Shown: one piece after another, positions 13,868 to 44,304 of the stretch
Layout: each line of letters opens with the position of its first letter
Position numbering within the stretch: the first letter of the stretch is position 1
DNA from: Chloroflexota bacterium
Lineage (GTDB): Bacteria > Chloroflexota > Limnocylindria > P2-11E
DNA: 45,646 nucleotides
NCBI GenBank assembly: GCA_027310565.1
Contig: DAIDAP010000010.1
Coordinates: forward strand, 1-45,646
Direction of reading: 5' to 3'
Translations under genes and position numbers: made by a program
The notes under the pieces: generated by a model
Told to the model about the DNA's origin: nothing
Databases searched by the model: none
Seen by the model: the letters and a program-made list of their open reading frames with translations, nothing else

Positions 13868-13894
13868 CTGAGCGCGGCCTGAGAGTCCGCTGGG
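13868..13894 (-). promoter_or_regulatory. 11-bp direct-repeat array (CTGAG x2 + CTGGG) upstream of the oxidase operon
   Basis: CTGAG at 13868, CTGAG at 13879 and CTGGG at 13890 lie exactly 11 bases apart. Read on the minus strand the units are CCCAG, CTCAG, CTCAG. The array ends 46 bases before the ctaC ATG and about 28 bases before a TATAGT box. Its orientation relative to the downstream gene is opposite to most other arrays in the window. It is proposed as a binding site for the OmpR-type regulator encoded at 36043-36819. Confidence 0.6.
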
Positions 13895-13922
13895 CGGCGG
13901 GCTTCGCCCGCAGACCAGCCGC

Positions 13923-17594: not shown

Positions 17595-17616
17595 TGTCGT
17601 GACCCCTCCCGCGTTT

Positions 17617-17654
17617 CTCAGCCGCCGCTCAGCCGCGCGCCAGCCTGCTGTCAG
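17617..17654 (+). promoter_or_regulatory. Four-unit 11-bp direct-repeat array upstream of the YHS gene
   Basis: CTCAG at 17617, CTCAG at 17628, GCCAG at 17639 and GTCAG at 17650 are spaced exactly 11 bases apart, in the same orientation as the downstream gene, whose ATG is 49 bases beyond the array. It lies in the 109-base gap after the cupredoxin gene, so the YHS gene and its neighbour can probably be transcribed separately from the oxidase operon. Confidence 0.65.
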
Positions 17655-17703
17655 CGAGCGCTGCGAGCCTCGACCGAGAGCGACGCGACAAGGAGTGGAC
17701 GCG

Positions 17704-17850
17704 ATGGCGAAGGACCCGGTCTGCGGCATGGACGTGAAGGTCGGCGCGGGCACGGCGAGCGCGACGCACGCGGGGAAGACCTACTACTTCTGCTCGGACG
17801 GCTGCAAGCGCTCGTTCACGAAGGAGCCGGCGCGCTACGCCGGGAAGTGA
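17704..17850 (+). CDS. Small YHS-domain metal-binding protein
   Basis: 48 residues forming one complete YHS domain: DPVCGMDV at the start, then YYFCSDGCKRSF in the second half, which supplies the conserved Cys residues. YHS/TRASH-like domains bind soft metals and often stand alone or fused to copper P-type ATPases, where they act as metal chaperones or sensors. ATG at 17704 with AAGGAG upstream. It sits between a cupredoxin gene and a small unknown gene and behind a CTCAG array, so a cytoplasmic copper-buffering role is likely. Confidence 0.88.
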   Translation: MAKDPVCGMDVKVGAGTASATHAGKTYYFCSDGCKRSFTKEPARYAGK

Positions 17851-27782: not shown

Positions 27783-27838
27783 GAGAGGACCTCCATGAGT
27801 TCGGGACGTGGCCCGTCGTGGTGAAGTGGACCGGTCAC
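27779..27838 (-). CDS. Possible 19-codon bridging ORF between copA and the cupredoxin gene
   Basis: The GTG at 27838 overlaps the ATPase gene stop as GTGA, and its own TGA overlaps the cupredoxin gene ATG as ATGA, so ribosomes could pass from one gene to the next without leaving the mRNA. The predicted peptide contains a HHDG stretch and spans the Shine-Dalgarno of the cupredoxin gene. No ribosome binding site of its own is obvious apart from the end of copA. Likely a coupling device if translated. Confidence 0.3.
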
Positions 27839-30309
27839 GACAGCGCCTCCGTGGGGCGGAAGCCCCGCAGGCGGTTCGCGTTGCTGATGACGGTCACCGA
27901 GCTGAAGCTCATCGCCGCGGCCGCCAGGATCGGCGACAGCAGGATGCCGAAGAAGGGGTAGAGCACCCCGAGCGCGATCGGCAGGCCGAGCGAGTTGTAG
28001 ACGAAGGCGCCGAAGAGGTTCTGGTAGACGTTGCGCATCGTGGCGCGCGACACCTCGATCGCGAGGACGACGCCCTTGAGGCTCCCGCCGATGAGCGTCA
28101 CGTCCGCCGCCTCGATGGCCACGTCGGTGCCGGTGCCGATGGCGAAGCCGACGTCGGCCTGCGTGAGCGCCGGCGCGTCGTTGGTCCCGTCGCCGACCAT
28201 GCCCACGCGCTTGCCCTCGAGCTGCAGCTTGCGCACCTCGGTGGCCTTGTCGCCGGGGAGCACCTCGGCGCGGATGCTCGTCACGCCGACCTGGCGCGCG
28301 ATCGCCTTCGCGGTGCGCGCGTTGTCGCCGGTGAGCATGACGACCTCGAGCCCGAGGTCGCGCAGGCGCTTGATCGCGCGGAGCGAGTCCTCCTTCACGG
28401 TGTCGGCGACCGCGACGAGCCCGGCGAGCCTGCCGTCGACGCTCACGTACATCGGGGTCTTGCCGTCCTCGGCGAGCGTGCCGAACGGGGTCAGGAGAGC
28501 GTCGGGCTCGATGCCGGCCCCACGCAGGAAGCGCTCGTTGCCGACGCGCACCTCGCGTCCGCCGACGCGCGCGACGATGCCGCCGCCCGTGACGGCGCTG
28601 AAGTCGGCCACCGGCTCGAGCTGGATGCCGCGGTCGAGACCACCCTTCACGATGGCCGCTCCGAGCGGGTGCTCCGAGCCGTGCTCCGCGCTCGCGACGA
28701 GCCGGAGCAGCTCCTCCTCGCCGAACGGCGCGAGCGGCACCACGTCGGTGAGCGCGGGCTCGCCCTTGGTGATCGTCCCGGTCTTGTCCAGCACGATCGT
28801 CTGGAGGCGCTGGGCGCCCTGCAGGGCCTCGCCGGAGCGGATGAGCACGCCGTGCTCGGCCGCCTTGCCGATGCCCGTCGTGAGCGACATCGGCGTCGCC
28901 ATCCCGAGGGCGCACGGGCACGCGATGATGAGCGCGGTGACCATGACGATGGTCGCGTAGGCGAAGGCCGGCGCGGGTCCGAAGTCGTACCAGACGACGA
29001 AGCCGGCGATCGCCAGGATGACGACGGCCGGCGTGAAGAACGCCGACACGCGGTCGACGATGCGCTGGATCGGCACCTTGGTGGCCTGCGCGTCCTGGAC
29101 CAGGCGAACGATGTTCGCCAGCGCCGTGTCCGCGCCGATCTTGGTCACGCGCATGGTGAAGGAGCCGTGGCTGTTCATGGTCGCGCCGATGACCTCGTCG
29201 CCGACCGCCTTGTCCACGGGCATCGACTCGCCGGTAATCATCGACTCGTCGATCGAGGACGAGCCCGAGACGATCGCGCCGTCGAGCGGGATCCGCTCGC
29301 CGGGCCGGACGACGAGCAGCTCGCCGACCCGGACCTCGGCGACCGGGACGGTCGTCTCCACGCCGTCGCGGATCACCCGCGCGGTCCGTGGCTGGAGCCC
29401 GATGAGCTTGTTGATCGCCTCGCTGGTCCGCCCGCGCGCCCTGATCTCCATGGCCATACCGAGGACGACCAGGGACACGACCACCGCCGTGACGTCGTAG
29501 TAGACGTCGGTGAACTCCGCGGACGGGAAGAGCTGCGGCGCGGCGAGCGCGATGCTCGAGTAGAGCCACGCGGTCCCGGTGCCGATGGCGATGAGCGTGT
29601 GCATCGTCGCCGAGCGGTGCTTGATGCTCTCGACGAGACCGACGAAGAACTGGCTACCCGAGTACCACAGCACGGCGAGGCTGGCGAGCCCCATGACCAC
29701 CCAGAGGTGGTGCAGCTGCACGCTGCCGCGCGGGAAGATGTCGCGCAGCACCGGGAAGAGCCAGGGGTAGGACAGCACCATGGTCGGCGCGGCGACCGCC
29801 GCCCCGAACCACCACTTGCGCATGAGCCGCCGGTACTCGCGCTCGCTGTCGCTGGGCTCGGCGGAGGCCTCGGCGGGCGCGGTGGCCTGCGGCTCCTGTT
29901 CCGCGGAGCCCCCGCGCAGGACGCGCGCCAGCTCGGCGACGCTCGCGCTGTCGCCCTGCGCCTCGATGTGCAGCTCGTTCCGCGACGCGTCCACCCGCAC
30001 CGCGGCGATCGCCGGCGCGCCCTCGCGCGCCGCGCGGGCGACGGCGTCGTGGTCATCGGCGGAACGCAGGTCCACTCCGACGCGGACGACCTTCGCTCCC
30101 GCGTCGCGCACGAGCGCGGTGAGCGCGACGAGGTCGAGGTCGGCGAGATCGCCGTCGATGGTGACGCGCTCGGTCGCCGGATTCACCGAGACCTGCCGCG
30201 TGCCGACGGCGGGCCGCAGGATGCGCTCGAGGCTCTGCGCCTCGGACGCGCAGCCGAGGTCCGAGAGCTCGAGCGTGAGCGTGGACTGGAGCGGAAGCGC
30301 GCTAGCCAT
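27835..30309 (-). CDS. copA: Copper-exporting P1B-1 ATPase with CPC motif
   Basis: 824 residues. Two degenerate N-terminal ferredoxin-like domains ([11 protein letters not shown] has one Cys only; the second has none) lead into eight helices. C464-P465-C466 ([13 protein letters not shown]), [27 protein letters not shown] and GDGTNDAP are all present; the usual GDGIND is GDGTND. The last helix has [17 protein letters not shown] with the Met-Ser-Ser signature of Cu(I) pumps. It exports Cu(I) from the cytoplasm. ATG at 30309 has GGAGGG upstream. A four-unit CTCAG array (30406-30443) precedes it, and it leads a 12-gene overlapping run down to nuoA. Confidence 0.95.
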
Positions 30310-30405: not shown

Positions 30406-30443
30406 CTGAGCCCAAACTGGCCCCGGACTGAGGATCGGCTGAG
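30406..30443 (-). promoter_or_regulatory. Four-unit 11-bp direct-repeat array upstream of copA
   Basis: On the plus strand CTGAG at 30406, CTGGC at 30417, CTGAG at 30428 and CTGAG at 30439, exactly 11 bases apart; read in the direction of copA transcription the order is CTCAG, CTCAG, GCCAG, CTCAG. It lies 96 bases before the copA ATG and 47 bases before the possible leader ORF, and downstream of the small membrane protein gene. Confidence 0.65.
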
Positions 30444-30476
30444 AGTTCGCGCGTCGATCGGCGGCTACTGGCGACG

Positions 30477-31074: not shown

Positions 31075-31107
31075 CGATCGAGCGTCACGGTGCCCCCTTG
31101 CCTGCGC

Positions 31108-31134
31108 CTGATACGCCGCTGAGTCGTCGCTGAG
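31108..31134 (-). promoter_or_regulatory. Three-unit 11-bp direct-repeat array before the cupredoxin gene
   Basis: CTGAT at 31108, CTGAG at 31119 and CTGAG at 31130, exactly 11 bases apart on the plus strand; in the direction of the cupredoxin gene this reads CTCAG, CTCAG, ATCAG. The proximal end is 33 bases before the GTG at 31074, a position suited to activation or repression of that gene. Confidence 0.6.
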
Positions 31135-31247
31135 AAGATGCCCTGATGGGCGATCGATGCGCGGGCGCGCGCGGGACCAACGGCCCGACAACTGGGGTCC
31201 GTTCGGACCTTTCCTGAGGGCGGCAAGCCGGACACGCTTCGCCATCA

Positions 31248-34646: not shown

Positions 34647-36029
34647 CTACGCCGCGGTGCTCGCCGCGTCGGCCGTGGCCACGACCGGCAGCCGCACGAT
34701 CACGCGGGTGCCGCGCGGCGCGCGCGGCTCGAGCGCGATCGATCCGCCGTGCCGCGCGACGATCCAGTGCGCGATGGACAGCCCGAGCCCGGTGCCGGCG
34801 GGGTCGAGGCGCTGCGCCTCTCCGCCGCGATAGAAGCGCTCGAAAGCGCGCCGCGCCACCTCTGACGTGATGCCGATCCCCTCGTCGTCCACGACGAGCA
34901 CAGCCTCGCTCCCCGAGAGCGTGAGTGAGAGGCGCACGCCGCCGGGCGGCGGCGTGTAGCTCAGCGCGTTGTCCAGCACGATGAGCAGGAGCTGCTTCAG
35001 CCGGTCGCGCTCGCCGCTGACGACCGCGGCCTCGAGGTCGACGACGCCGAGCCGCGGGCCGGCCTGACCGCGCAGCTCGCGGAAGGTCTCCATGACGAGC
35101 TCGTCGAGCTGGACCGGCCGCCCGACGAAGGGCTGCGGCCCGGCGTCGGCGCGCGCCAGCACGAGCAGATCGTCCACCAGGCGCGCGAGACGACGCGTCT
35201 CCTTGCGCGCCTCGCCCACGACCGAACCGACCTCGGCGGGGGGAAGACCGCCGCGCGCGAGGAGCTCGAGGTCGCCCTGGATCGCTGTGAGCGGCGTGCG
35301 CAGCTCGTGCGAGACGTCGGCCACGAAACGCTGCTGCCGCCGGTACGCGTCGTCGAGGTTCGCGAGCATGTGATTGAAGGTGCGCGCGAGCTCGCTGAGC
35401 TCGTCCCCGCCGTCGCCGCGGACGTCGATGCGCCGCGCGAAGCCGCGCGACAGCGCGATCGCGCGCGCGGTCTCGGTCATCCTCGCGATCGGACGGAGCG
35501 CGCCGGCGGAGATCAGCCAGCCTCCGGCGACCGCGATCGCGATCCCGGCGACAGCCATGAGACCGAAGATCACGCCGAGATCGGCGACGGACGCGTCGAA
35601 CGCCGCCATCGAGGCGGCGACGACCACGCGGGCTCCGCCGGTGCCGGGCACGCTGCCCGCGAACGAGCGGACCCGGCCGCCGGGGAGGCCGGTGTCCGCG
35701 ATCCCGTCGGGCGCCGCGGCCGGGCGGTACCGCGCGAGGAGCGGGTCGCCGGTGTCACCCGCGCCGGGAGACGGCGTGCCGCCGGGAGGGATGAGCCAGA
35801 TCGCCGTCGGAGAGTTCGCCGCCCGCGTCGGCGCCGTGAGCGTCGCCGGAGCGGGGCCGGCGGACGCGGTGATCTCGGAGACGGCGTGGTCCCACGACGT
35901 GCGCAGCGACGTCGCGGCATCGGTCTCGTGCGACGCGGTGTGCACGACGAACGCCATGGCGAGCGTGCCCACCAGCACCAGCGCGAGCAGCGCGCCGTAC
36001 CAGAGCGAGAGCCGCAGACGGATGCTCAC
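34647..36029 (-). CDS. Sensor histidine kinase (HAMP-HisKA-HATPase)
   Basis: 460 residues. Helices at about 7-29 and 150-176 enclose a periplasmic sensor domain of about 115 residues rich in Pro, Gly and Ala. A HAMP domain follows (to about 230), then HisKA with phospho-acceptor H241 (DVSHELRTPLTAIQGD), the N box LLIVLDNALSYTPP, and ATP-lid motifs DDEGIGI and GTGLGLSIAHWIV. It phosphorylates the response regulator encoded 13 bases upstream. The sensed signal is not evident: there is no His or Met cluster typical of CusS-type copper sensors. GTG start with a weak ribosome binding site, suggesting dependence on the upstream gene for translation. Confidence 0.92.
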   Translation of the reverse strand: MSIRLRLSLWYGALLALVLVGTLAMAFVVHTASHETDAATSLRTSWDHAVSEITASAGPAPATLTAPTRAANSPTAIWLIPPGGTPSPGAGDTGDPLLARYRPAAAPDGIADTGLPGGRVRSFAGSVPGTGGARVVVAASMAAFDASVADLGVIFGLMAVAGIAIAVAGGWLISAGALRPIARMTETARAIALSRGFARRIDVRGDGGDELSELARTFNHMLANLDDAYRRQQRFVADVSHELRTPLTAIQGDLELLARGGLPPAEVGSVVGEARKETRRLARLVDDLLVLARADAGPQPFVGRPVQLDELVMETFRELRGQAGPRLGVVDLEAAVVSGERDRLKQLLLIVLDNALSYTPPPGGVRLSLTLSGSEAVLVVDDEGIGITSEVARRAFERFYRGGEAQRLDPAGTGLGLSIAHWIVARHGGSIALEPRAPRGTRVIVRLPVVATADAASTAA

Positions 36030-36042
36030 GGCGGGGCGCCGC

Positions 36043-36819
36043 TCAGGAGGCGGGCTCGCGCAGGACGTAGCCCGCGCCGCGCAGCGTGTGGATGAGGCGC
36101 GGCTCGCCCGCGGCCTCGAGCTTCTGGCGCAGGTAGCGGACGTACACCTCGAGGACGTTGTAGTTGCCGCCGAAGTCGTAGCCCCAGACCTTCTCGGTGA
36201 GCTGCTCCTTCTCGAGCACCTGGCGGGGATGGCGCATGAACTGGAGGAGGAGCTCGTACTCGGTCGTCGTGAGCGCGATCTCGCGAGAGCCTCGGCGCGC
36301 GCTGCGGGTGCCGGTGTCGAGCGTCAGGTCGCCGAAGCGCAGCGACTCGGCCTCGCTCGGCTCCTTGCGGCGGAGGAGCGCGCGGATCCGCGCGGTGAGC
36401 ACCTCGAGCGTGAAGGGCTTCACCAGGTAGTCGTCGGCGCCGGCGTCGAGCCCGATCACCTGGTCGGCCGCGGCGTCACGCGCGGTGAGCATGAGGATCG
36501 CGAGCTGCGGATCGCCCGCGCGCAGGCGCCGCGCGACCTCCACGCCGTCGATGCCGGGCATCATGATGTCGAGCACCACCAGGTCCGGCGCGAACTCCAG
36601 CGTCTTCTTCAGCGCCTCGGCGCCGTCGCGGGCGGTCGCGACCGTGTAGCCCTCGAACGAGAGCGCGCGGCGCAGCATGTTCGTCACGTTCTCGTCGTCG
36701 TCGACGACGAGCAGTCGCCCCGGGTGGTTCGCGGTCTGGGCGTCGCTCGGGACGGTGGCCATCTCGGAAGAGAGTATCGGTGTTCGGACCTCGCGAGGGC
36801 CGGTCGTGTCGGGAGTCAT
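36043..36819 (-). CDS. OmpR/PhoB-family response regulator
   Basis: 258 residues. Receiver domain from about residue 35, with acidic pocket DDDE, phospho-acceptor D84 (LVVLDIMMPGIDG), the LTAR Thr and the KPF Lys, then a winged-helix DNA-binding domain (about 160-255) with TTTEYELLLQFM and VRYLRQKLE. The ATG at 36819 overlaps the stop of the ABC-transporter wreck as ATGA and has GGGAGG 6 bases upstream; ATG 36762 is weaker. OmpR-family dimers bind direct repeats spaced about one helical turn apart, which is the geometry of the CTCAG arrays in this window, one of which (37455-37492) lies upstream of this gene. Confidence 0.93.
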   Translation of the reverse strand: MTPDTTGPREVRTPILSSEMATVPSDAQTANHPGRLLVVDDDENVTNMLRRALSFEGYTVATARDGAEALKKTLEFAPDLVVLDIMMPGIDGVEVARRLRAGDPQLAILMLTARDAAADQVIGLDAGADDYLVKPFTLEVLTARIRALLRRKEPSEAESLRFGDLTLDTGTRSARRGSREIALTTTEYELLLQFMRHPRQVLEKEQLTEKVWGYDFGGNYNVLEVYVRYLRQKLEAAGEPRLIHTLRGAGYVLREPAS

Positions 36820-37432
36820 CGGGGGCCTCCCGCGCGCACGGCCTCGTACCGGACGGCCTCCCGCGGGGCGGCCTCGTGCCGGCCGGACGCCGCCATCGCG
36901 GTCGCCTCTTTGAGCTCGCCGTCCTCGAGCCAGAGGACACGATCGGCGATGTCCTTGATGGGCTGGTCGTGCGACACGATGAGCACCGAGCGGCCCTGAT
37001 CCTTCACGATCGATCGGAGCAGCCGCATGATCTCGTGGCCGACCTTCGGGTCGAGGTTCGCGGTCGGCTCGTCCGCGAGGATGAAGGTGAAGATGAAGGT
37101 CGTCATGCACGATGCCGTCCCCTCGGAGAGACCCGCGATGGTGAAGCGGCGGCCCATCAGGTCGAACCGGTCGACGACCGCGAGGTCGTAGCGGCGGGCG
37201 AGCGCGCGGTCGACGACGGCCTCGTCGTCCGCCGCCACGTCGCGGCCGCGGCGAGGCTCCAGGGCCCTCCGCCCGGCGCCGGATCGGATCCGACGACGTA
37301 GGCGGAGCGCTTCTCGCCGCGCGGCTCGAGGATGACGAACGATGAGAGGATTGGAACGGCTGAAGCGACGCCGGCGATCGAGAGTCCAAGTCGAGCGCGG
37401 TCGCGCGTGAGGTTGCGGGCGGCGAGCCGCAT
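36816..37432 (-). pseudogene. Wreck of a MacB-like ABC exporter (permease fragments fused to ATPase C-terminus)
   Basis: Starting at ATG 37432 the first 24 codons (RLAARNLTRDRARLGLSIAG) are the N-terminus of an FtsX/MacB-like permease. The frame then jumps to a later permease segment (VPILSSFVIL, GGGPWSLA), suffers a frameshift near 37230-37260, continues in another frame (DDEAVVDRALARR, DRFDLMGRRFTIAGLSEG), and then changes into an ABC ATPase C-terminus (FILADEPTANLDP with Walker B and D-loop, LIVSHD). Walker A and the ABC signature are missing. A 9-base direct repeat GATGAAGGT (37080-37088 and 37092-37100) marks the last junction, suggesting deletion between short repeats. The remnant still ends in ATGA with the response regulator start, so it may persist as a translated leader. 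Confidence 0.75.
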
Positions 37433-37454
37433 GCCCGCAGCGTCGGGCCGCCTG

Positions 37455-37492
37455 CTGGTGCCGCCCTTGAACGGGGCTGAGCGCCCGCTGAG
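37455..37492 (-). promoter_or_regulatory. Four-unit 11-bp direct-repeat array upstream of the ABC wreck/regulator/kinase operon
   Basis: On the plus strand CTGGT at 37455, CTTGA at 37466, CTGAG at 37477 and CTGAG at 37488, all 11 bases apart; in the direction of transcription CTCAG, CTCAG, TCAAG, ACCAG. It lies between the multicopper oxidase stop (37493) and the ATG of the wreck (37432), so it could give autoregulation of the two-component system. Confidence 0.6.
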
Positions 37493-38674
37493 TCAGTCGA
37501 CCTGGATGATGAGCGTCAGCCCGCCGGCTCCCTGCTCCTCGCGCTGGTCGTTCCGCGTGTGGTGGTTGATGTGGCAGTGGAGCAGCCAGCGCCCCGGCGC
37601 GCGCGCTTCCCAGACGACGTCGTAGCGCTCCCCGGGCCCGACGTTCACGGTGTCCTTCTCAATCCGGCCGGCCTCGGGGACCGCCTGGCCGTCGGTCGCG
37701 ACGATGGTGAACGGCCCGCCGTGGATGTGCATCGGATGGATGAAGCCGCTCTGCGAGCCGATGAAGCGCACGAGGAGGCGCTCGCCGACGCGCATGCGCA
37801 CGACCTCGGTCTCGGGGTAGGCCTTCCCGTTGATGGTGAAGAAGTTCGGCTGCATGCCGTCCATCGGCATCGCCGGGAACGTGTATCCGTCCTTGAACAT
37901 CCACTCCTGCAGCTGGACCACCAGCTCCCGGTCGTAGGCGGCGAGCGGCCGCGGCCCGTCGACGATGAGGGCACCGTAGAGCCCGAGCGCCTCCTGCCGG
38001 TCGGCGTCGTCGTGCGAGTGGTAGAAGAACGTGCCCTGCTGGCGCGCCGTGAACTCGTAGGTGTACGACCCGCCGGGCGGGATCGGCTCCTGCGTGATCC
38101 CGGCCGGCCCGTCCATCGCGTTCGGGAGGACGAGCCCGTGCCAGTGCACCGTCGTCGTCACCGGGAGGGAGTTCCTCACGACGAACCGGACGCGGTCGCC
38201 GACGCTGATCCGGATGCGCGGCCCCGGCACCTGGCCGTTGTACGCGTACGCCGCGACGCGCGCCCAGGGCAGGATGTTCCAGCGGATCACCGCGGCCTCC
38301 AGCTCGAACACCTTCACCCCGTTCTCGATCCGCGGCTCGAGCGGCTGGTCGCCGCGGGCGTCGGCCGGCGCTTCGTAGCGCACCGCACGGAGGTCGACCG
38401 CCGCCATGTCCCGCATCGCCTCGGCGGAGAGGTCGCGCCGCGACACCATGCCCGGCGGCATGACCACGCCGCCGACCTCGTGCGCGTTGAGCGTGAGGTT
38501 CGCCGAGCGCGCGGACGCGACGAGGCCGACGACGAGCGCGAGCACGGTGAGGCCGCTCACGGCCACGAGCTGCGCGCGCGTCACGACGAAGACGGGATCG
38601 CGCGAGCGGCGCGGCGCGCGCGCCGGCGCGGCCTTCGGCCGCGTGCCGCCGTGGGCCTCGTGGTCCATGGTCAT
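37493..38674 (-). CDS. Membrane-anchored multicopper oxidase
   Basis: 393 residues. An N-terminal cytoplasmic segment with basic residues is followed by one helix (about 30-52), then two visible cupredoxin-type domains. The four copper-ligand motifs are present: HWHGLVLPNAMDG, FFYHSHDD, HPMHIHGGPF and LLHCHINHH. The residue after the last motif is not the usual Met or Leu context (HHTRNDQ), as in other short bacterial copper oxidases with a Gly-rich ending (GAGGLTLII). It probably oxidises Cu(I) or another substrate outside the cell. ATG at 38674 overlaps the DUF4396 gene stop (ATGA, 38671-38674). It is the last gene of an eight-gene operon. Confidence 0.92.
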   Translation of the reverse strand: MTMDHEAHGGTRPKAAPARAPRRSRDPVFVVTRAQLVAVSGLTVLALVVGLVASARSANLTLNAHEVGGVVMPPGMVSRRDLSAEAMRDMAAVDLRAVRYEAPADARGDQPLEPRIENGVKVFELEAAVIRWNILPWARVAAYAYNGQVPGPRIRISVGDRVRFVVRNSLPVTTTVHWHGLVLPNAMDGPAGITQEPIPPGGSYTYEFTARQQGTFFYHSHDDADRQEALGLYGALIVDGPRPLAAYDRELVVQLQEWMFKDGYTFPAMPMDGMQPNFFTINGKAYPETEVVRMRVGERLLVRFIGSQSGFIHPMHIHGGPFTIVATDGQAVPEAGRIEKDTVNVGPGERYDVVWEARAPGRWLLHCHINHHTRNDQREEQGAGGLTLIIQVD

Positions 38675-39480
38675 GCGCCGGCGGCCTTCCCGACCTTCTC
38701 GGCGAGATCGCCCGCGGCGCGGCGACCCGTCCGCACCATGTCCTCCCAGACGTCCTCGAGGTCCATGCCGTGCCCGCCCTTCCCGAGGGCGCGCTCGGTG
38801 CCCATGCCGTGCTTCAGGCCGACGGCGACGAGCCAGACGTTCACCGGATACGCGACGACGAAGCCGACGACCACGCTGACGGACATGGCGGCCCAGTACA
38901 CGACGTTCGCCGGGTGCATCGCGCGCATGTCCTGGCCCATCATCAGGACGACCATGGTCGGGATCATCCCGGCCATGACCATGTTCATCGAGAGCCATTC
39001 GGGGATGAGCGACATGCCGAGCGCCCGGCGGTACGAGCCGCCCATCATGCCCCTCATGAACAGCGCCTGGAACACGAGGAGCCCGAAGGAGAACCCGAGC
39101 GCGTACTCGACGATGAAGTCGATCCACATCGGGAAGCCGACGGCCGCGGTGACCGTCGCGGCGAAGACGATGCCGGTCGCGTCGCCGGCGACGCAGTGGA
39201 TCGTCGAGCCGACGCCCTGCTTCCACAGCGGGCTCACGAACCGCTCGTGCGTCCCGCGCCGCGGCTCCTTGCACGAGAGCACGTAGAGCGCCGCGCCGAG
39301 CGGCCCCGTGTACAGCGTCACGAGGAGCCAGCCCCACCTCATGACCTGGAGCTCGGGGTTGTTGACGAAGGCATCCCACGCGACGTACGCGGCCGACGCG
39401 ACCAGGAGGGCGAGCCAGACGAGCGCGACGACGTCGATCCACGCGAGCGGCCCGAGGAGCGGGAGCGTGAGATCGGTCAT
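38671..39480 (-). CDS. DUF4396 membrane protein
   Basis: 269 residues with about six helices. The DUF4396 hallmark CVAGDATGIVFAA (about residues 96-108) is present, as are Met-rich loops (MRGMMGGSYRR, MNMVMAGMIPTMVVLMMGQDMRAMH) that look suited to Cu(I) or Ag(I). The C-terminus is a charged cytoplasmic tail. Function in the family is unknown; members are often encoded beside multicopper oxidases, as here. ATG at 39480 with a poor ribosome binding site, 43 bases after the SpoIIM-like gene. Confidence 0.82.
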   Translation of the reverse strand: MTDLTLPLLGPLAWIDVVALVWLALLVASAAYVAWDAFVNNPELQVMRWGWLLVTLYTGPLGAALYVLSCKEPRRGTHERFVSPLWKQGVGSTIHCVAGDATGIVFAATVTAAVGFPMWIDFIVEYALGFSFGLLVFQALFMRGMMGGSYRRALGMSLIPEWLSMNMVMAGMIPTMVVLMMGQDMRAMHPANVVYWAAMSVSVVVGFVVAYPVNVWLVAVGLKHGMGTERALGKGGHGMDLEDVWEDMVRTGRRAAGDLAEKVGKAAGA

Positions 39481-39523
39481 CGCAGGGGCGACATGGTACC
39501 CGCCCCCGGTCCCGGCGACGCGC

Positions 39524-40129
39524 TCAGCGGGCGAGGAACTCCCAGAGCGACGCGACCAGGAACAGGGGCACGATCACGACGTACGCGAGGGCGGCGTCGC
39601 GCAGCCGGTCCTTCGGCAGGCCCAGCCAGGTATCGGTGCGCGGCCGCCGGAGCGCGCGCCACGCATCGAACCCGACCCGCACGCCCACGCCGCCCGCGAT
39701 CGAGTACGGGATGAGCTGGAGCGCGAGCGTGACGAGGTAGTAGAGCGCCTCACCGGCGTCGGCCAGGCGGCTCTGGTGGCGAGCGTCGGCGGACACGATC
39801 CCGCCGACCCAGCCGCGGTAGGCCACGGCCGGGTACGAAAGCACGACGCCGAACCCCAGGAGCGTGCTCGGGACGGCGCCGAGCGCGAGGTTCGACCCGA
39901 AGTCCAGCAGCGCGGCCCGCAGCGGCTCCCCCGCACCGCGAGCCGCGATGATCTCGCTCGACTGGGCTCCGCCCACGATCTCGTCGCGGCGCTCGAGCGC
40001 GAAGGCGCTCCCGGTGCTCACCATCGCGATGCCGGCCGCGACCGAGAGGACGTAGGTCGCCGCGACGGTGAGGATCGCCACCCTGGCCCGACCGATCGCC
40101 GCGAGCGACGCGCGGACGAGCGCGAGCAT
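39524..40129 (-). CDS. SpoIIM-like (stage II sporulation M family) membrane protein
   Basis: 201 residues, four or five helices, with a long extracytoplasmic loop after the first helix. The order of segments, including YPAVAYRGWVGGIVSADARH and the ALYYLVTLALQLIPYSIAGG stretch, fits the SpoIIM-like integral membrane family; members occur widely in non-sporulating bacteria and are not specific to sporulation. ATG at 40129 with GGAGAGAG upstream. The gene lies between lgt and the DUF4396 gene. Its role in this copper operon is not evident. Confidence 0.65.
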   Translation of the reverse strand: MLALVRASLAAIGRARVAILTVAATYVLSVAAGIAMVSTGSAFALERRDEIVGGAQSSEIIAARGAGEPLRAALLDFGSNLALGAVPSTLLGFGVVLSYPAVAYRGWVGGIVSADARHQSRLADAGEALYYLVTLALQLIPYSIAGGVGVRVGFDAWRALRRPRTDTWLGLPKDRLRDAALAYVVIVPLFLVASLWEFLAR

Positions 40130-40153
40130 CTCTCTCTCCGGCGCGCGGCGGCC

Positions 40154-40930
40154 TCAGGCCGCCGGCCGCGCGGCGAGCGCGCGCGGCCACGCGGCCCACA
40201 GCGCGGCGACGCCCAGCGCGACGAGCGCGAGGAGCTGCGCCTCCTGCAGGCCGGCGAGCCACACCGTCTCCGTCCGGCGGAACGACACCGCGAACTTACC
40301 GACGGCGTAGAGCGCCAGGTACACCGCGAAGAGACCGCCCTCGAGACGCAGCCGCGGGCGCAGCCACCACAGCAGCGCGAACACGCCGAGGTCCCACGCC
40401 ATCTCGTACAGGAAGACCGGCTCGTACGCGACGCCGAGCCGCGGGACGAGCGCGCCCGGGTTCAGGTAGGTGATCCCGAGACCGGTCGTCGGCGCGCCGA
40501 CGGCGTCGCCGGTGAAGAGGCACGCGAAGCGGCCGATGGCCTGGCCGAGGATCGCCGCGGGCGCGACCGCATCGGCGATCGCGCGGATGGGCAGCCCGCG
40601 GCGCCACGCGACGACGAGCCCGGTGAGGGTCCCGCCGAGGACGCCGCCGAGGATCGCGAGGCCCCCGTTCCAGATCGCGAGCGCCGCCATCGGATCGGCG
40701 GCGTAGAGGTCCCAGCGATCGACGACGTGCAGCAGCCGTGCGCCGACGAGGCCGCCGGCGATCACCCAGGACGCCAGCGACTCGATCTCGGCCACCGGCA
40801 GTCCCGCGCGCTTCGCCTCGCGCAGAGTCAGCCACACGCCGACGCCGAGGGCGAGGACGACGAAGAGGCCGTACCAGCCCAGCGTGAGCGGGCCGAGGCG
40901 GAGGATGACCGGATCGACGTTGATCGTCAC
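40154..40930 (-). CDS. lgt: Prolipoprotein diacylglyceryl transferase
   Basis: 258 residues with seven helices. Lgt signatures are visible: LTLGWYGLFVVLALGVGV near the start, GGLVGARLLHVVDRWD, and the family motif GQAIGRFACLFTGDAVG followed by YEPVFLYEMAWDL. It transfers diacylglycerol to the lipobox Cys of prelipoproteins, such as the four lipoproteins encoded in this window. GTG at 40930, three bases after the CcdA-like gene stop. Placement inside a copper/cytochrome operon instead of a housekeeping cluster suggests a second, specialised copy, which should be checked in the genome. Confidence 0.9.
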   Translation of the reverse strand: MTINVDPVILRLGPLTLGWYGLFVVLALGVGVWLTLREAKRAGLPVAEIESLASWVIAGGLVGARLLHVVDRWDLYAADPMAALAIWNGGLAILGGVLGGTLTGLVVAWRRGLPIRAIADAVAPAAILGQAIGRFACLFTGDAVGAPTTGLGITYLNPGALVPRLGVAYEPVFLYEMAWDLGVFALLWWLRPRLRLEGGLFAVYLALYAVGKFAVSFRRTETVWLAGLQEAQLLALVALGVAALWAAWPRALAARPAA

Positions 40931-40933
40931 GCG

Positions 40934-41641
40934 TCAGAGCGCGGCGAGAGCGGCGAGCGACACGAGCGCCGTGGTGAGCCCGAGCGCGAGCTTCAGCGAG
41001 GCGCGGTTGTGCAGCTGCCAGCGCGTGAGCGCACGCATCGCGGCGGGCGTGGCGGCCGCGCCGAGGAGCGCGATGAGCGGGACGACGAACGCGAGGTTGT
41101 ACACGACGAGGTACCCGAAGGCCTGCGCCATGTCGCTGCGGGCCGAGAGCAGCGCCAGGACCGCGAGGTAGACGTTGCCCGAGCAGGGCACGGTGCAGAG
41201 GCCGATGAGCGAGCCGGCGACGAAGAGGCCCGGCACCGACGCGCGCGAGACCCAGCTCTGCGCGCGGCTGTGGAGCATCGGCGGCATCCGGAGGCGCTCG
41301 CCGAGCTCGGGGAGGAGCGCCTCCTGCAGCGCGAGCACGCTCCAGCCGATGGCCACGACCGCGAAGATCTTCGTCCCGATGTGGTCCTGGCGGAGCGCGC
41401 TCGCGAAGCCCATGAGCCCGAGGCCGATGAGCAGGTACGTGATGAACATGCCCGCGACGTAGGCGGCGCCGCCCCGGAAGAGGGCGCGGCGCCGCTCTCC
41501 GAGCGCGCCCTCCATCGTGGCGCCGACGGCGAGGAGCGTCGCGGAGACGAATACCAGCAGGACCGCGATGGCGCACGGGTTGATGCCGTCGACGAGCCCG
41601 GCGAGCACGACGGTCGCGAGGTTGAGATCGACGCCGCTCAT
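40934..41641 (-). CDS. ccdA: CcdA-like thiol-disulfide transporter
   Basis: 235 residues, six helices. The two conserved Cys lie in GINPCAIAVLLVF (helix 1) and GLCTVPCSGNVYLAV (helix 4), with accompanying Pro residues as in CcdA/DsbD core proteins that carry reducing power across the membrane. In most bacteria this serves cytochrome c maturation; here no CxxCH protein is seen in the window, so reduction of CuA or cupredoxin thiols is an alternative. ATG at 41641 overlaps the cupredoxin gene stop (ATGA, 41638-41641). Confidence 0.87.
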   Translation of the reverse strand: MSGVDLNLATVVLAGLVDGINPCAIAVLLVFVSATLLAVGATMEGALGERRRALFRGGAAYVAGMFITYLLIGLGLMGFASALRQDHIGTKIFAVVAIGWSVLALQEALLPELGERLRMPPMLHSRAQSWVSRASVPGLFVAGSLIGLCTVPCSGNVYLAVLALLSARSDMAQAFGYLVVYNLAFVVPLIALLGAAATPAAMRALTRWQLHNRASLKLALGLTTALVSLAALAAL

Positions 41642-42081
41642 GCGGCTCTGAGCTTCAACGTCCCGCGCATCGCCGGGTTCTCCTTGCCGCCGCAGCAGTT
41701 GTCGCACCAGAAGGTGAACTCACCGGCCGCGGACGCGGGGATGGTCACGACCTGCGCCGTCTCGGGCTGGACGAGCTCTCTGACGCCCAGGGCGGCGATG
41801 GCGAACTCGTGGACACCGCCGCCGTCGCTGTGCAGGCTGGAGTCGGGGTTGACGACGCGGACGCGCACCGACCGGCCGGCCGGCGCCGTGATCGTCGCCG
41901 GGACGAAGCCGTTCATGCTGATCTGCACGGTCGCGTCGACCGGCGCCGTATCGGCCGACGCCAGGTCCCTCGGCCAGAGCGCGTACGCGGCTCCGCCCGC
42001 GACGGCGAGCGCGAGGATCGCGAAGATCGTCATACGGACGCGGAGTCTCGATGACCGCCGCTGCGGTCGTCTGCGTGGCAT
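41638..42081 (-). CDS. Membrane-anchored cupredoxin with extra cysteines
   Basis: 147 residues. A very basic N-terminus (PRRRPQRRSSRLRVR) precedes one helix, then a cupredoxin_1/COX2-like domain. Likely copper ligands are His in GGGVHEFAIA, Cys residues in FWCDNCCGGKENPAMRG and the Met of AMRG. The C-x-x-C-C spacing goes beyond a simple type 1 site and could host a CuA-like or two-metal centre. ATG at 42081 with AAGGAG upstream. Encoded between cytochrome b and the CcdA-like protein, which could keep its cysteines reduced; a role as electron carrier or copper chaperone is inferred. Confidence 0.82.
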   Translation of the reverse strand: MPRRRPQRRSSRLRVRMTIFAILALAVAGGAAYALWPRDLASADTAPVDATVQISMNGFVPATITAPAGRSVRVRVVNPDSSLHSDGGGVHEFAIAALGVRELVQPETAQVVTIPASAAGEFTFWCDNCCGGKENPAMRGTLKLRAA

Positions 42082-42150
42082 GCCCTTACTCCTTCTCTCT
42101 CCCCGACCTCGTCGACGGGGCGTCGAGGTCCATCGGATCCACCGTATTCC

Positions 42151-42339
42151 CTACTTTCGAGCGCTGCGTGCGGTGTCGTACTGCACGCGTGCGAGGAGGA
42201 AACCTGACAGGAGCAGCCCCACGAGCGCGAGGGCATCGGGCGCTCCGAACGGCCCACCCCGGTCGAACGTCGACCAGAGACGCCCGAGCGATGCCGTCGC
42301 GACCGCGAACCAGAACCAGAAGGCGACCGTGTGAATCAT
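42151..42339 (-). CDS. Small two-helix membrane protein after cytochrome b
   Basis: 62 residues with two hydrophobic segments (about 4-22 and 36-54) and a basic end. Its ATG overlaps the cytochrome b stop (ATGA, 42336-42339), so it should be made together with cytochrome b and may be a small accessory subunit. No family recognised; a His and several Trp near the N-terminus are the only conspicuous residues. Confidence 0.6.
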   Translation of the reverse strand: MIHTVAFWFWFAVATASLGRLWSTFDRGGPFGAPDALALVGLLLSGFLLARVQYDTARSARK

Positions 42340-43454
42340 CCTCCGAGGTGCTTCACCACCGGCGAGAAGAACACGATGAGCGAGAGGCCCACGATGGCGA
42401 CGATCACCGCGGCGGCCAGCACCGTCACGACCGGGCGGCGGCGCAGGCTCCGCCAGGGCGAGCGATCGACGAACGGGACGAGCACCAGCGCCGCCCCGAA
42501 GGCGAGGCCCGCGTACAGGATCGCGCTGACCCCGAACTTGTCCTCGAACCAGTACAGCCAGTAGAAGAAGAACGGCGGCTTGGTGATCTCCAGATCGGGA
42601 TTCGGCGCCTCTCCGAGCGGGGCCGGGAAGACCAGGCCCAGGCCCGCGGCGACCACGGCGAGCACAAGACCGCCGCCGAACATCCACCTGAGGTGCGTGC
42701 TGTAGCGGGCGGTGAGCTGCGGGGCGGGGACCTTGCCGCGCGGCGCCTCACCGCGGTCCGCGGCGGCGGGAAGCGGCGAGATTCCGTGGTGCTTGATGAG
42801 GAAGAAGTGCCCGATGAAGAGCAGCGTGGCGAGGAGCGGCAGGAGGCTCACGTGCGTGGCGTACAGCCGCACCAGCACGGGCACCGAGGTGGTGAAGGAG
42901 GCGGAGAAGAACGTGCCGAGCCCGCCGAGGATCTCGGCGATCTCGAGGTTGTGCTGGAGCGCCTCGTAGGCCTCCTGGTCCCACTTCAGCACGCTGCCGG
43001 TGAACGCGAAGGCGATCGTGACGCCGAGGAGCCCCACGCCGACGAGCCAGTTCAGCTCGCGCGGGCGCTTGAACGACGCCGTCGCGAAGACGCGGACCAG
43101 GTGCAGGACCACGGTGACCACGACGATGTTCGCGACCCAGAAATGGATCCCGCGCACGAGCCCGCCGAGCGCGGCCTGCGTCTGGATGTACTCGACCGCG
43201 CCGCGCACCCGGTCCGGCATCGGGTCGTAGAACTGGGCGAGCCAGAACCCGGTGAGCGCCAGCACGAGGAACCCGACGAAGCTGATGCCGCCGAGGGTGT
43301 ACGGGAGGGTGTTCGCGTGCGCGGGCACCGGGTACGTGAGGGCGGACAGGCCGGCCCGGTCGTAGATCCAGCGCCACAACCCCATGCGCTCGGTCTGTGT
43401 GTGGTCGGCCGGCGCCGGAGACGGCATCTGGACAGGTACGGGTGCGGTCGCCAT
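42336..43454 (-). CDS. Cytochrome b (bc-complex type), no Rieske partner nearby
   Basis: 372 residues, about eight helices, so it contains both the b6-like haem-binding part and a C-terminal subunit IV-like part. Two His pairs suited to two b haems are visible: GIHFWVANIVVVTVVLHLVR and ATHVSLLPLLATLLFIGHFF. The region TGSVLKWDQEAYEAL and KPPFFFYWLYWFEDKFG correspond to quinol-site loops, with YWLYWFED in place of the usual PEW-type motif. ATG at 43454 with AAGGGGA upstream. It heads the eight-gene operon ending with the multicopper oxidase. No Rieske or cytochrome c1 gene is adjacent, so its electron acceptor is unknown. Confidence 0.88.
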   Translation of the reverse strand: MATAPVPVQMPSPAPADHTQTERMGLWRWIYDRAGLSALTYPVPAHANTLPYTLGGISFVGFLVLALTGFWLAQFYDPMPDRVRGAVEYIQTQAALGGLVRGIHFWVANIVVVTVVLHLVRVFATASFKRPRELNWLVGVGLLGVTIAFAFTGSVLKWDQEAYEALQHNLEIAEILGGLGTFFSASFTTSVPVLVRLYATHVSLLPLLATLLFIGHFFLIKHHGISPLPAAADRGEAPRGKVPAPQLTARYSTHLRWMFGGGLVLAVVAAGLGLVFPAPLGEAPNPDLEITKPPFFFYWLYWFEDKFGVSAILYAGLAFGAALVLVPFVDRSPWRSLRRRPVVTVLAAAVIVAIVGLSLIVFFSPVVKHLGG

Positions 43455-43514
43455 GAGCAGTTTCCCCTTCCGCGCAGCGCGCAGGTTCTGTGTTGGTGAG
43501 GCTCGCGGGTCCGG

Positions 43515-43552
43515 CTGGGACCTCGCTTGGCCCCGTCTGAGACGGCGCTGAG
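43515..43552 (-). promoter_or_regulatory. Four-unit 11-bp direct-repeat array facing the cytochrome b operon
   Basis: On the plus strand CTGGG at 43515, CTTGG at 43526, CTGAG at 43537 and CTGAG at 43548, exactly 11 bases apart; in the direction of cytochrome b this reads CTCAG, CTCAG, CCAAG, CCCAG. The order of strong and weak units matches the 37455-37492 array. The proximal end is 60 bases before the cytochrome b ATG. Confidence 0.65.
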
Positions 43553-43563
43553 AATCTCCCGTT

Positions 43564-43601
43564 CTCAGCCGGCCGACAGCGCACGCCAAGCGGTGGCTCA
43601 G
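43564..43601 (+). promoter_or_regulatory. Four-unit 11-bp direct-repeat array facing the gene at 43642
   Basis: CTCAG at 43564, GACAG at 43575, CCAAG at 43586 and CTCAG at 43597, exactly 11 bases apart, 40 bases before the GTG at 43642. It mirrors the 43515-43552 array: the two are joined by a perfect inverted repeat CTGAGAA (43548-43554) and TTCTCAG (43562-43568) with seven bases between. Confidence 0.6.
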
Positions 43602-43641
43602 ACGTCCCCGCGAGTCTGCTCCCTCGAGGAGGTATACGCCT

Positions 43642-44304
43642 GTGCAAGCAACCGTGGCGCCCACCACTCGCCGACCCGCGAGGGCATCCTCATGGCTGGC
43701 CTGGCCGCGACTCGCCATCGTGCTCGTGGCGGCGGCCGCCGTCGTCGCGCTCAGCTTCGGCCTCGCGATCTCGGCCGAGCAGCAGGCCGCTCGGCAGCTC
43801 GAGGACGCACAGGCCGAGCTGGCCGGCGCCCGCTCGGCCATCGCGGCGCACGCGACGGTCATGCGCACGCAGGGCGAAGCGCTCGTCGCCGCGGCGCAGA
43901 GCTCCACCGGCCCGAACCGCGACCACGTCATCCTCGACGCGCAGTCGATGATCGCCGACGCCGCGCGCCTGGACGCCACCGCGAGCCTGCTCGCGAGCCA
44001 GGCTCGGCTCCTCGGCGAGCACCCCGGTCAGTCCGTGCGCTCGAACCTCGCGTACATCCACGAGACCGGCGCCGCGCTCGTGACCGAGGGTGACCAGCTC
44101 GTCGCGCAGGCCGCGGCGGTCCGCGACCACGCCGCGGGGATGGAGGCGCTCGCCGGAGCGGGCGGGGACGACATCGTGGCACGCAGCATCACGATGCTTC
44201 GCGATGACGCCGACCGTCTCGCCGACGCCGGCCAGCGGACGCGATCGATCGGCGCGGCGCTGAGCCAGGTGGGCGAGCAGTTCATGCGGAGCCTCGGCCG
44301 CTAG
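43642..44304 (+). CDS. Membrane-anchored helical protein of unknown function
   Basis: 220 residues. Basic N-terminus, one helix (about 24-45), then about 175 residues that look entirely alpha-helical and Ala/Glu/Gln-rich, outside the membrane by the positive-inside rule. Scattered His and Met residues (AAHATVMRTQ, DHVILDAQSM, ITMLRDDADR) could bind metal, but no known motif is present. GTG with GAGGAGG upstream. Divergent from the cytochrome b operon and preceded by a CTCAG array, so it probably belongs to the same regulon. It resembles the extracytoplasmic part of a chemoreceptor or a four-helix bundle; no family recognised. Confidence 0.72.
   Translation: MQATVAPTTRRPARASSWLAWPRLAIVLVAAAAVVALSFGLAISAEQQAARQLEDAQAELAGARSAIAAHATVMRTQGEALVAAAQSSTGPNRDHVILDAQSMIADAARLDATASLLASQARLLGEHPGQSVRSNLAYIHETGAALVTEGDQLVAQAAAVRDHAAGMEALAGAGGDDIVARSITMLRDDADRLADAGQRTRSIGAALSQVGEQFMRSLGR

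Follow-up and report, generated by a model that had tools for sequence, protein, structure and literature searches.

In Escherichia coli, the promoters controlled by PhoB carry 11-bp tandem pho boxes which replace the -35 element and are placed about 10 bp before the -10 hexamer. In Mycobacterium tuberculosis, PhoP binds as a tandem dimer to direct TCACAGC repeats, which must be separated by a 4-bp spacer, its affinity being higher for three or four repeats than for two; in the same report, the base contacts are made by Asn212, Val213, Glu215, Ser216, Tyr217 and Tyr220, with Asn212 and Ser216 sharing a water molecule at one motif base (PMC4832192). The motifs given in two further reports, TAWATAAA for CutR (PMC12802291) and TKTTAAGAAM for MprA (PMC12113857), were different from the boxes described below, and the htrA site of MprA, TTTTCAGCAA, had some likeness to them (PMC12113857); the CssR-binding terms tried gave no match in the available part of PMC12802291. 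Judged by title, no related report on the box motif with either a response regulator or copper was found in the open-access literature.

The locus compared here with these systems lies in a 45,646-nt stretch of DNA from a Chloroflexota bacterium, whose full length is referred to as the window, and consists of two arrays of 11-bp-spaced boxes arranged as mirror images between a copper/cytochrome operon and an unannotated gene. Judging from the arrangement of the sites, the genes on both sides are very probably members of a single copper and respiration regulon. The kind of system has already been described, the regulon and the partner gene being new members of it.

Structure of the mirror array and its genomic context

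Eight CTGAGA-like units, each exactly 11 bp from the next inside its arm, occupied the 87 bp at 43515–43601, confirming what had been noticed earlier in this DNA. They started at 43515 (CTGGGA), 43526 (CTTGGC), 43537 (CTGAGA) and 43548 (CTGAGA) on the plus strand and at 43568 (CTGAGA), 43579 (CTGTCG), 43590 (CTTGGC) and 43601 (CTGAGC) on the minus strand. The inverted repeat described by the earlier note, CTGAGAA (43548–43554) and TTCTCAG (43562–43568) with a 7-nt gap, was also present, although its true perfect length was 8 nt (43547–43554/43562–43569); CTGAGAA-N7-TTCTCAG occurred only once in the 2.79-Mb genome. This central dyad, GCTGAGAA-N7-TTCTCAGC (43547–43569), is formed by the two facing gene-distal boxes and is what two facing consensus boxes yield. 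A longer pair, 43499–43531/43585–43617, was 76% complementary and included the outer parts of the element, and the mirror symmetry extended to 43499–43617, past the span first given, once the -10-like hexamers were counted.

The arms had been described as directed away from each other, which holds in the TCTCAG reading, the one usually facing a gene, while in the CTGAGA reading they face each other. Read as TCTCAG, the left arm (43515–43554, minus strand) consisted of the 11-bp-spaced boxes TTCTCAG, TCTCAG, GCCAAG and TCCCAG running toward cytochrome b, and the right arm (43562–43601, plus strand) of TTCTCAG, CGACAG, GCCAAG and GCTCAG running toward the unannotated gene. The right arm was the weaker one because of its degenerate second unit (CTGTCG), for which reason the stricter two-unit scan missed it; the promoter matrix did detect it. 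In the direction of its own gene, each arm stopped exactly 10 bp short of a -10-like hexamer; of these, GAGCCT at 43499–43504 (minus strand) is predicted for the cytochrome b operon and GAGTCT at 43612–43617 (plus strand) for the unannotated gene.

The strand spanning the element folded strongly (-61.9 kcal/mol, z -4.1), as might be expected if the inverted repeat worked as an RNA hairpin or terminator, but such a fold is expected of any mirror array, the element lies upstream of both predicted start sites, and no intrinsic terminator (a G+C-rich stem followed by a T run) was found in 43440–43660. This reading was scarcely credible and was rejected.

On the left, the element was followed by the gene for cytochrome b (42336–43454, minus strand; Pfam Cytochrome_B), the first of the left operon, and by a run on the same strand (37493–42339) of a small ORF and genes for a cupredoxin, a CcdA/DsbD-like protein, Lgt, a SpoIIM-like protein (an assignment below the Pfam cut-off), a DUF4396 protein and a multicopper oxidase. 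Gene calling gave eight genes from 43454 to 37493, which fits the eight-gene copper/cytochrome operon proposed earlier. On the right, the unannotated gene (43642–44304, plus strand, 220 aa) began with GTG 9 nt after GAGGAGG (43626–43632).

Four single arms were present in the window in addition to the mirror pair. Those on the minus strand were located at 30406–30445 upstream of the P-type ATPase gene copA (27835–30309; -10 CAACGT), at 31097–31136 before a reading frame for a cupredoxin domain (-10 GACGCT) and at 37455–37494 before a short ORF and the two-component genes, the last of these arms bordering directly on the multicopper oxidase stop codon and having its -10 hexamer GACGCT at 37439–37444. 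The fourth, on the plus strand at 17615–17654 (-10 GAGCCT), preceded a YHS-domain gene (17695–17850). In the stretch 37432–37455 the -10 hexamer is only 6 nt ahead of the ATG at 37432, and the transcript could be leaderless. The two-component genes, both on the minus strand, encode an OmpR/PhoB-type response regulator (36043–36762) with the recognition helix NVLEVYVRYLR, proposed here as the binder of the arrays, and a sensor histidine kinase (34647–36029) with HAMP, HisKA and HATPase_c domains. The multicopper oxidase gene is separated from the response regulator gene by two short open frames without a Pfam match (36816–37432), which by eye resembled pieces of an ABC transporter; stretches similar to one of them were found near regulators in other genomes.

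Specificity and placement of the arrays

The two-unit pattern with at most one mismatch was found in nine places genome-wide, six of them inside the window, and the reversed control gave none; the corresponding binomial value of 1.5e-9 is not unbiased, since the window was chosen for this finding. A promoter matrix was built from five arms, all located outside the window: four came from two relatives and one from contig C37 of the same genome. It recognized six sites in the 45.6-kb window at 27–41 bits, with the mirror arms scoring 40.7 and 36.0. These six sites precede cytochrome b, the unannotated gene, copA, the cupredoxin frame, the YHS gene and the short ORF before the two-component genes. 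The seventh-best match, at 9.3, repeated one of these sites in a shifted register; the maximum was 13.4 in five mononucleotide shuffles and 18.0 in the reversed sequence. Two further sites with two-unit matches, 13868 (upstream of cytochrome oxidase genes) and 31248, had no promoter-matrix match and were rejected as regulon members; at 13868–13895, three CTGAGA-like units, with an M23 peptidase gene on one side and the cytochrome c oxidase operon on the other, are oriented opposite to that operon.

An 11-arm matrix, which included the window arms, found 45 sites of at least 20 bits over 60 loci against none in the reversed control, and a three-unit pattern with two mismatches gave 89 matches versus four for the reversed control. 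The looser scan with three mismatches gave 55 versus 11, and some of the loci picked from it may be chance matches. Of the periods tried around the regulator loci, 11 bp gave arrays, and 9, 10, 12, 13 and 22 bp as well as the reversed motif gave none.

Altogether, the window and 35 loci in related genomes yielded 48 distinct arrays, of which none was inside a called gene, with a simple codon-usage caller assigning 79% of that sequence as coding. Where a divergent gene start was present within 400 bp on one side only, TCTCAG pointed toward the gene in 22 arrays and against it in five (sign test 0.0015), the remaining arrays having gene starts on both sides (16) or on neither (5). In 38 arrays the orientation toward a gene was the usual one. 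Of these, 26 were followed exactly 10 bp on by a hexamer whose second base was A and sixth base T, against an expectation of 2.7%, and 12 lacked such a match. The next-best offsets, 32 (six arrays) and 21 (three arrays), correspond to 10 plus whole 11-bp steps. We take this hexamer as the presumptive -10 element. No sigma-70 -35/-10 consensus pair was found in 43440–43660, a scan which says little because the shuffled sequences also gave none.

On the level of sequence, the view of the mirror array as two co-regulated back-to-back class II promoters is strongly supported, and it is highly likely that these belong to one regulon activated by the window-encoded regulator through their tandem boxes. 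The phosphorylated regulator would bind each arm head-to-tail, every 11-bp unit taking one subunit for a maximum of four, and the gene-proximal subunits would stand in for the -35 element, bringing RNA polymerase to a weak -10 hexamer 10 bp downstream. The left arm would thereby drive cytochrome b, cupredoxin, CcdA, Lgt and the following genes through the multicopper oxidase, and the right arm the unannotated gene, while the single arms would drive copA, the cupredoxin gene, the YHS gene and the stretch ending in the two-component genes, the last being a case of autoregulation. The co-regulation of both sides predicted by the earlier note is well supported at the sequence level, each side having an array of the same kind and its own -10-like hexamer at the same distance. 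Copper or a periplasmic redox change would be the probable signal.

Regulators of the OmpR family are also able to repress, and the sequence alone carries no sign of the direction of regulation, so that the same sites might mainly serve for repression, the regulator keeping the polymerase off both promoters as long as no signal is present. This appears distinctly unlikely: the boxes stop 10 bp upstream of the -10 hexamer without overlapping it, and most of the hexamers are without the initial T of TANNNT. Boxes upstream of the -10 element and a -10 element without its first T are both typical of promoters that need an activator, and we infer activation rather than repression.

The candidate regulator

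The window regulator matched Response_reg (2.5e-30) and Trans_reg_C (2.3e-26) and was thus assigned to the OmpR/PhoB type. Its closest solved structures were PrrA (E 2e-63) and PhoP (9e-63) of M. tuberculosis, and in the NCBIfam model for CopR/CusR/SilR heavy-metal regulators (TIGR01387) it scored 204.8 bits, below the cut-off of 279.2. Searches with this regulator produced 39 strong (at least 262 bits) and 32 weaker matches, and the neighborhoods of 20 from each group were scanned: 22 array clusters were present around the strong matches, in 12 of the 20 loci (the other eight had no array at the threshold), in comparison to a single cluster around the weaker ones. Across the genomes of the class, a three-unit array was present in 23 of the 31 genomes with a strong regulator match versus 13 of the 146 lacking one (Fisher 2e-13). 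Eight genomes with an ortholog had no strong three-unit match and 13 with matches had no detected ortholog, the regulator search having scored at most 15 candidates per genome, by which orthologs can be missed.

The recognition helix NVLEVYVRYLR was nearly invariant among the orthologs, with few exceptions. Five of the six base-contacting residues of PhoP were identical in the window regulator, and the sixth, Ser216, was replaced by Val206, a change which may be paired with the changed base of the motif. The residue at this position cannot set the specificity alone, because the array-poor paralogs mostly have Val as well. From the shared neighborhoods and the conserved helix we infer that the response regulator encoded nearby (36043–36762) is most likely the protein binding the arrays. 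The genome does encode additional regulators of the OmpR type, found on C36 (53% identical) and on C37 (39% identical, near another mirror element), and a paralogous response regulator of this sort might bind the boxes instead. We regard this as very unlikely, given that a different helix, N[SA]LDVY[VI]GYLRRK, is carried by the regulator on C36 and by most of the 20 weaker matches examined, one of whose 20 neighborhoods contained an array, and that the helix of the C37 regulator is RTVDAHVKNLRRK.

Mirror elements in related genomes

At the matrix threshold six mirror pairs were detected, with outer spans of 84 bp (L038, L042 and L045), 86 bp (L076), 87 bp (the window) and 121 bp (L087). The gap between the arms was 7 bp in the window, 4, 4, 4 and 6 bp in the other compact pairs and 41 bp in L087. 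The mirror elements of L045 and L076 adjoined cupredoxin/CcdA genes and a SHOCT protein, that of L042 the same cupredoxin/CcdA genes and a protein judged by eye to be similar, and that of L038 an M50 protease and a YHS protein. Since the flanking genes differ, the partner gene varies among the mirror elements, and among those found the unannotated gene was the partner in the window only.

The proposal that the eight units make up one switch did not find support, as the single arms stand alone before copA, the YHS gene, the cupredoxin frame and the ORF ahead of the two-component genes, and it is further weakened by the variable gap at the dyad. Fixed spacing across the dyad, as in a palindromic operator bound by a dimer with two-fold symmetry, was not found and arms without a dyad also exist; a palindromic operator was rejected on account of the varying arm gap and of single arms having all of the features. 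A single cooperative operator, in which a regulator complex across the dyad would couple both promoters with neither firing alone, might explain why compact elements recur with such similar spans in five of the six pairs and in three gene contexts. It remains unlikely: the extremes of the gap among the compact pairs amount to approximately 100 degrees of helical twist and the gap of L087 is far wider, so that a rigid joint complex is disfavored; further, looser mirrored arrays exist (e.g., in L031), four single arms are present within the window alone, and three of the five compact elements (L042, L045 and L076) adjoin the same cupredoxin/CcdA genes and may share descent.

The compact mirror element (84–87 bp, in four genomes of one family) might also be under selection as a unit, with two chains of the regulator meeting at the center and coupling a copper/respiratory operon to a partner operon that varies, the partner here being a lineage-specific membrane-anchored helical protein handling envelope copper; this we consider rather unlikely. 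Two back-to-back promoters of one regulon remain our preferred reading. A reverse arrangement, with two-unit arrays each pointing past the other, was observed in L080 (3794–3846) and L095 (8773–8824), near a more distant regulator adjoining FeS/NrfD genes.

The unannotated partner gene

The protein encoded to the right of the array matched nothing in Pfam or NCBIfam at the thresholds applied, and nothing below E 0.049 was found in PHROGs. The structural model (mean pLDDT 70) predicted one N-terminal helix and four long helices, and a fold search with this model gave no PDB match at E 0.001 or lower. No homologs were found in the named genome collection, which may omit the source genome and very near ones. 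Relatives were detected in four other genomes of the 177 in the class, all from the same family, and a search of 28 genomes of this family recovered three of these four and one further weak match. The gene is lineage-specific and its product is a predicted helical protein. Three residues, H70, M74 and H163, were conserved in four of four sequences, suggesting a copper site formed by the conserved His and Met; the idea is weak because a fifth homolog lacks the first His.

The relatives of the gene had no array within approximately 1.3 kb, and among those found only the window copy had one. Two relatives (L207 and L208) are located approximately 3 kb from FeS/NrfD genes, without arrays. Regulon membership of the window copy is proposed because it has its own arm and -10 hexamer, and these would place it, as the earlier note anticipated, in the functional context of copper and respiration.

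Comparison with known systems

The described array and its -10 hexamer at a fixed 10 bp offer a readable regulon code for an uncultured lineage and tie an unannotated gene to copper and respiration. A close counterpart with a solved structure, M. tuberculosis PhoP, is likewise an OmpR/PhoB-type regulator with a 7-bp motif and a 4-bp spacer, i.e., an 11-bp period, and with tandem arrays reaching three and four repeats (PMC4832192). In contrast to that system, the window motif is TCTCAGC instead of TCACAGC, the differing base being the one at which the shared water of Asn212 and Ser216 is located in PhoP, Val206 stands in place of Ser216, and the gene context is that of copper and respiration; as a single motif base and a single contacting residue have both changed relative to PhoP, the pair makes a compact test of helix specificity in OmpR-type regulators. 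The pho box promoters of E. coli PhoB share the 11-bp tandem boxes and the distance of about 10 bp to the -10 hexamer, but differ in the sequence of the box, the signal and the target genes. The CopR/CusR-type regulators (TIGR01387) share the OmpR type and the copper gene context, although the window regulator scored below the cut-off of that family.

The same architecture was present outside the class. Around the best 79 named regulator loci in the matches listed, 11 arrays were detected, nine of them in Streptomyces (L125–L128, L130, L131, L134, L137 and L141, beside a related regulator), and all 11 had the -10 positions at 10 bp. L130 and L131 had four boxes and the other Streptomyces arrays three, the final box usually being TCTCAT. 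In L128, the sole Streptomyces locus examined, the downstream gene encoded a trypsin-like (HtrA-type) protease. These loci resemble the window in having TTCTCAG-like boxes 11 bp apart which end exactly 10 bp before the -10 positions, and differ from it in the recognition helix of the regulator, NSLDVYVMYLRRK, and in the presence of a protease instead of copper genes, thus providing a cultivable system with the same architecture.
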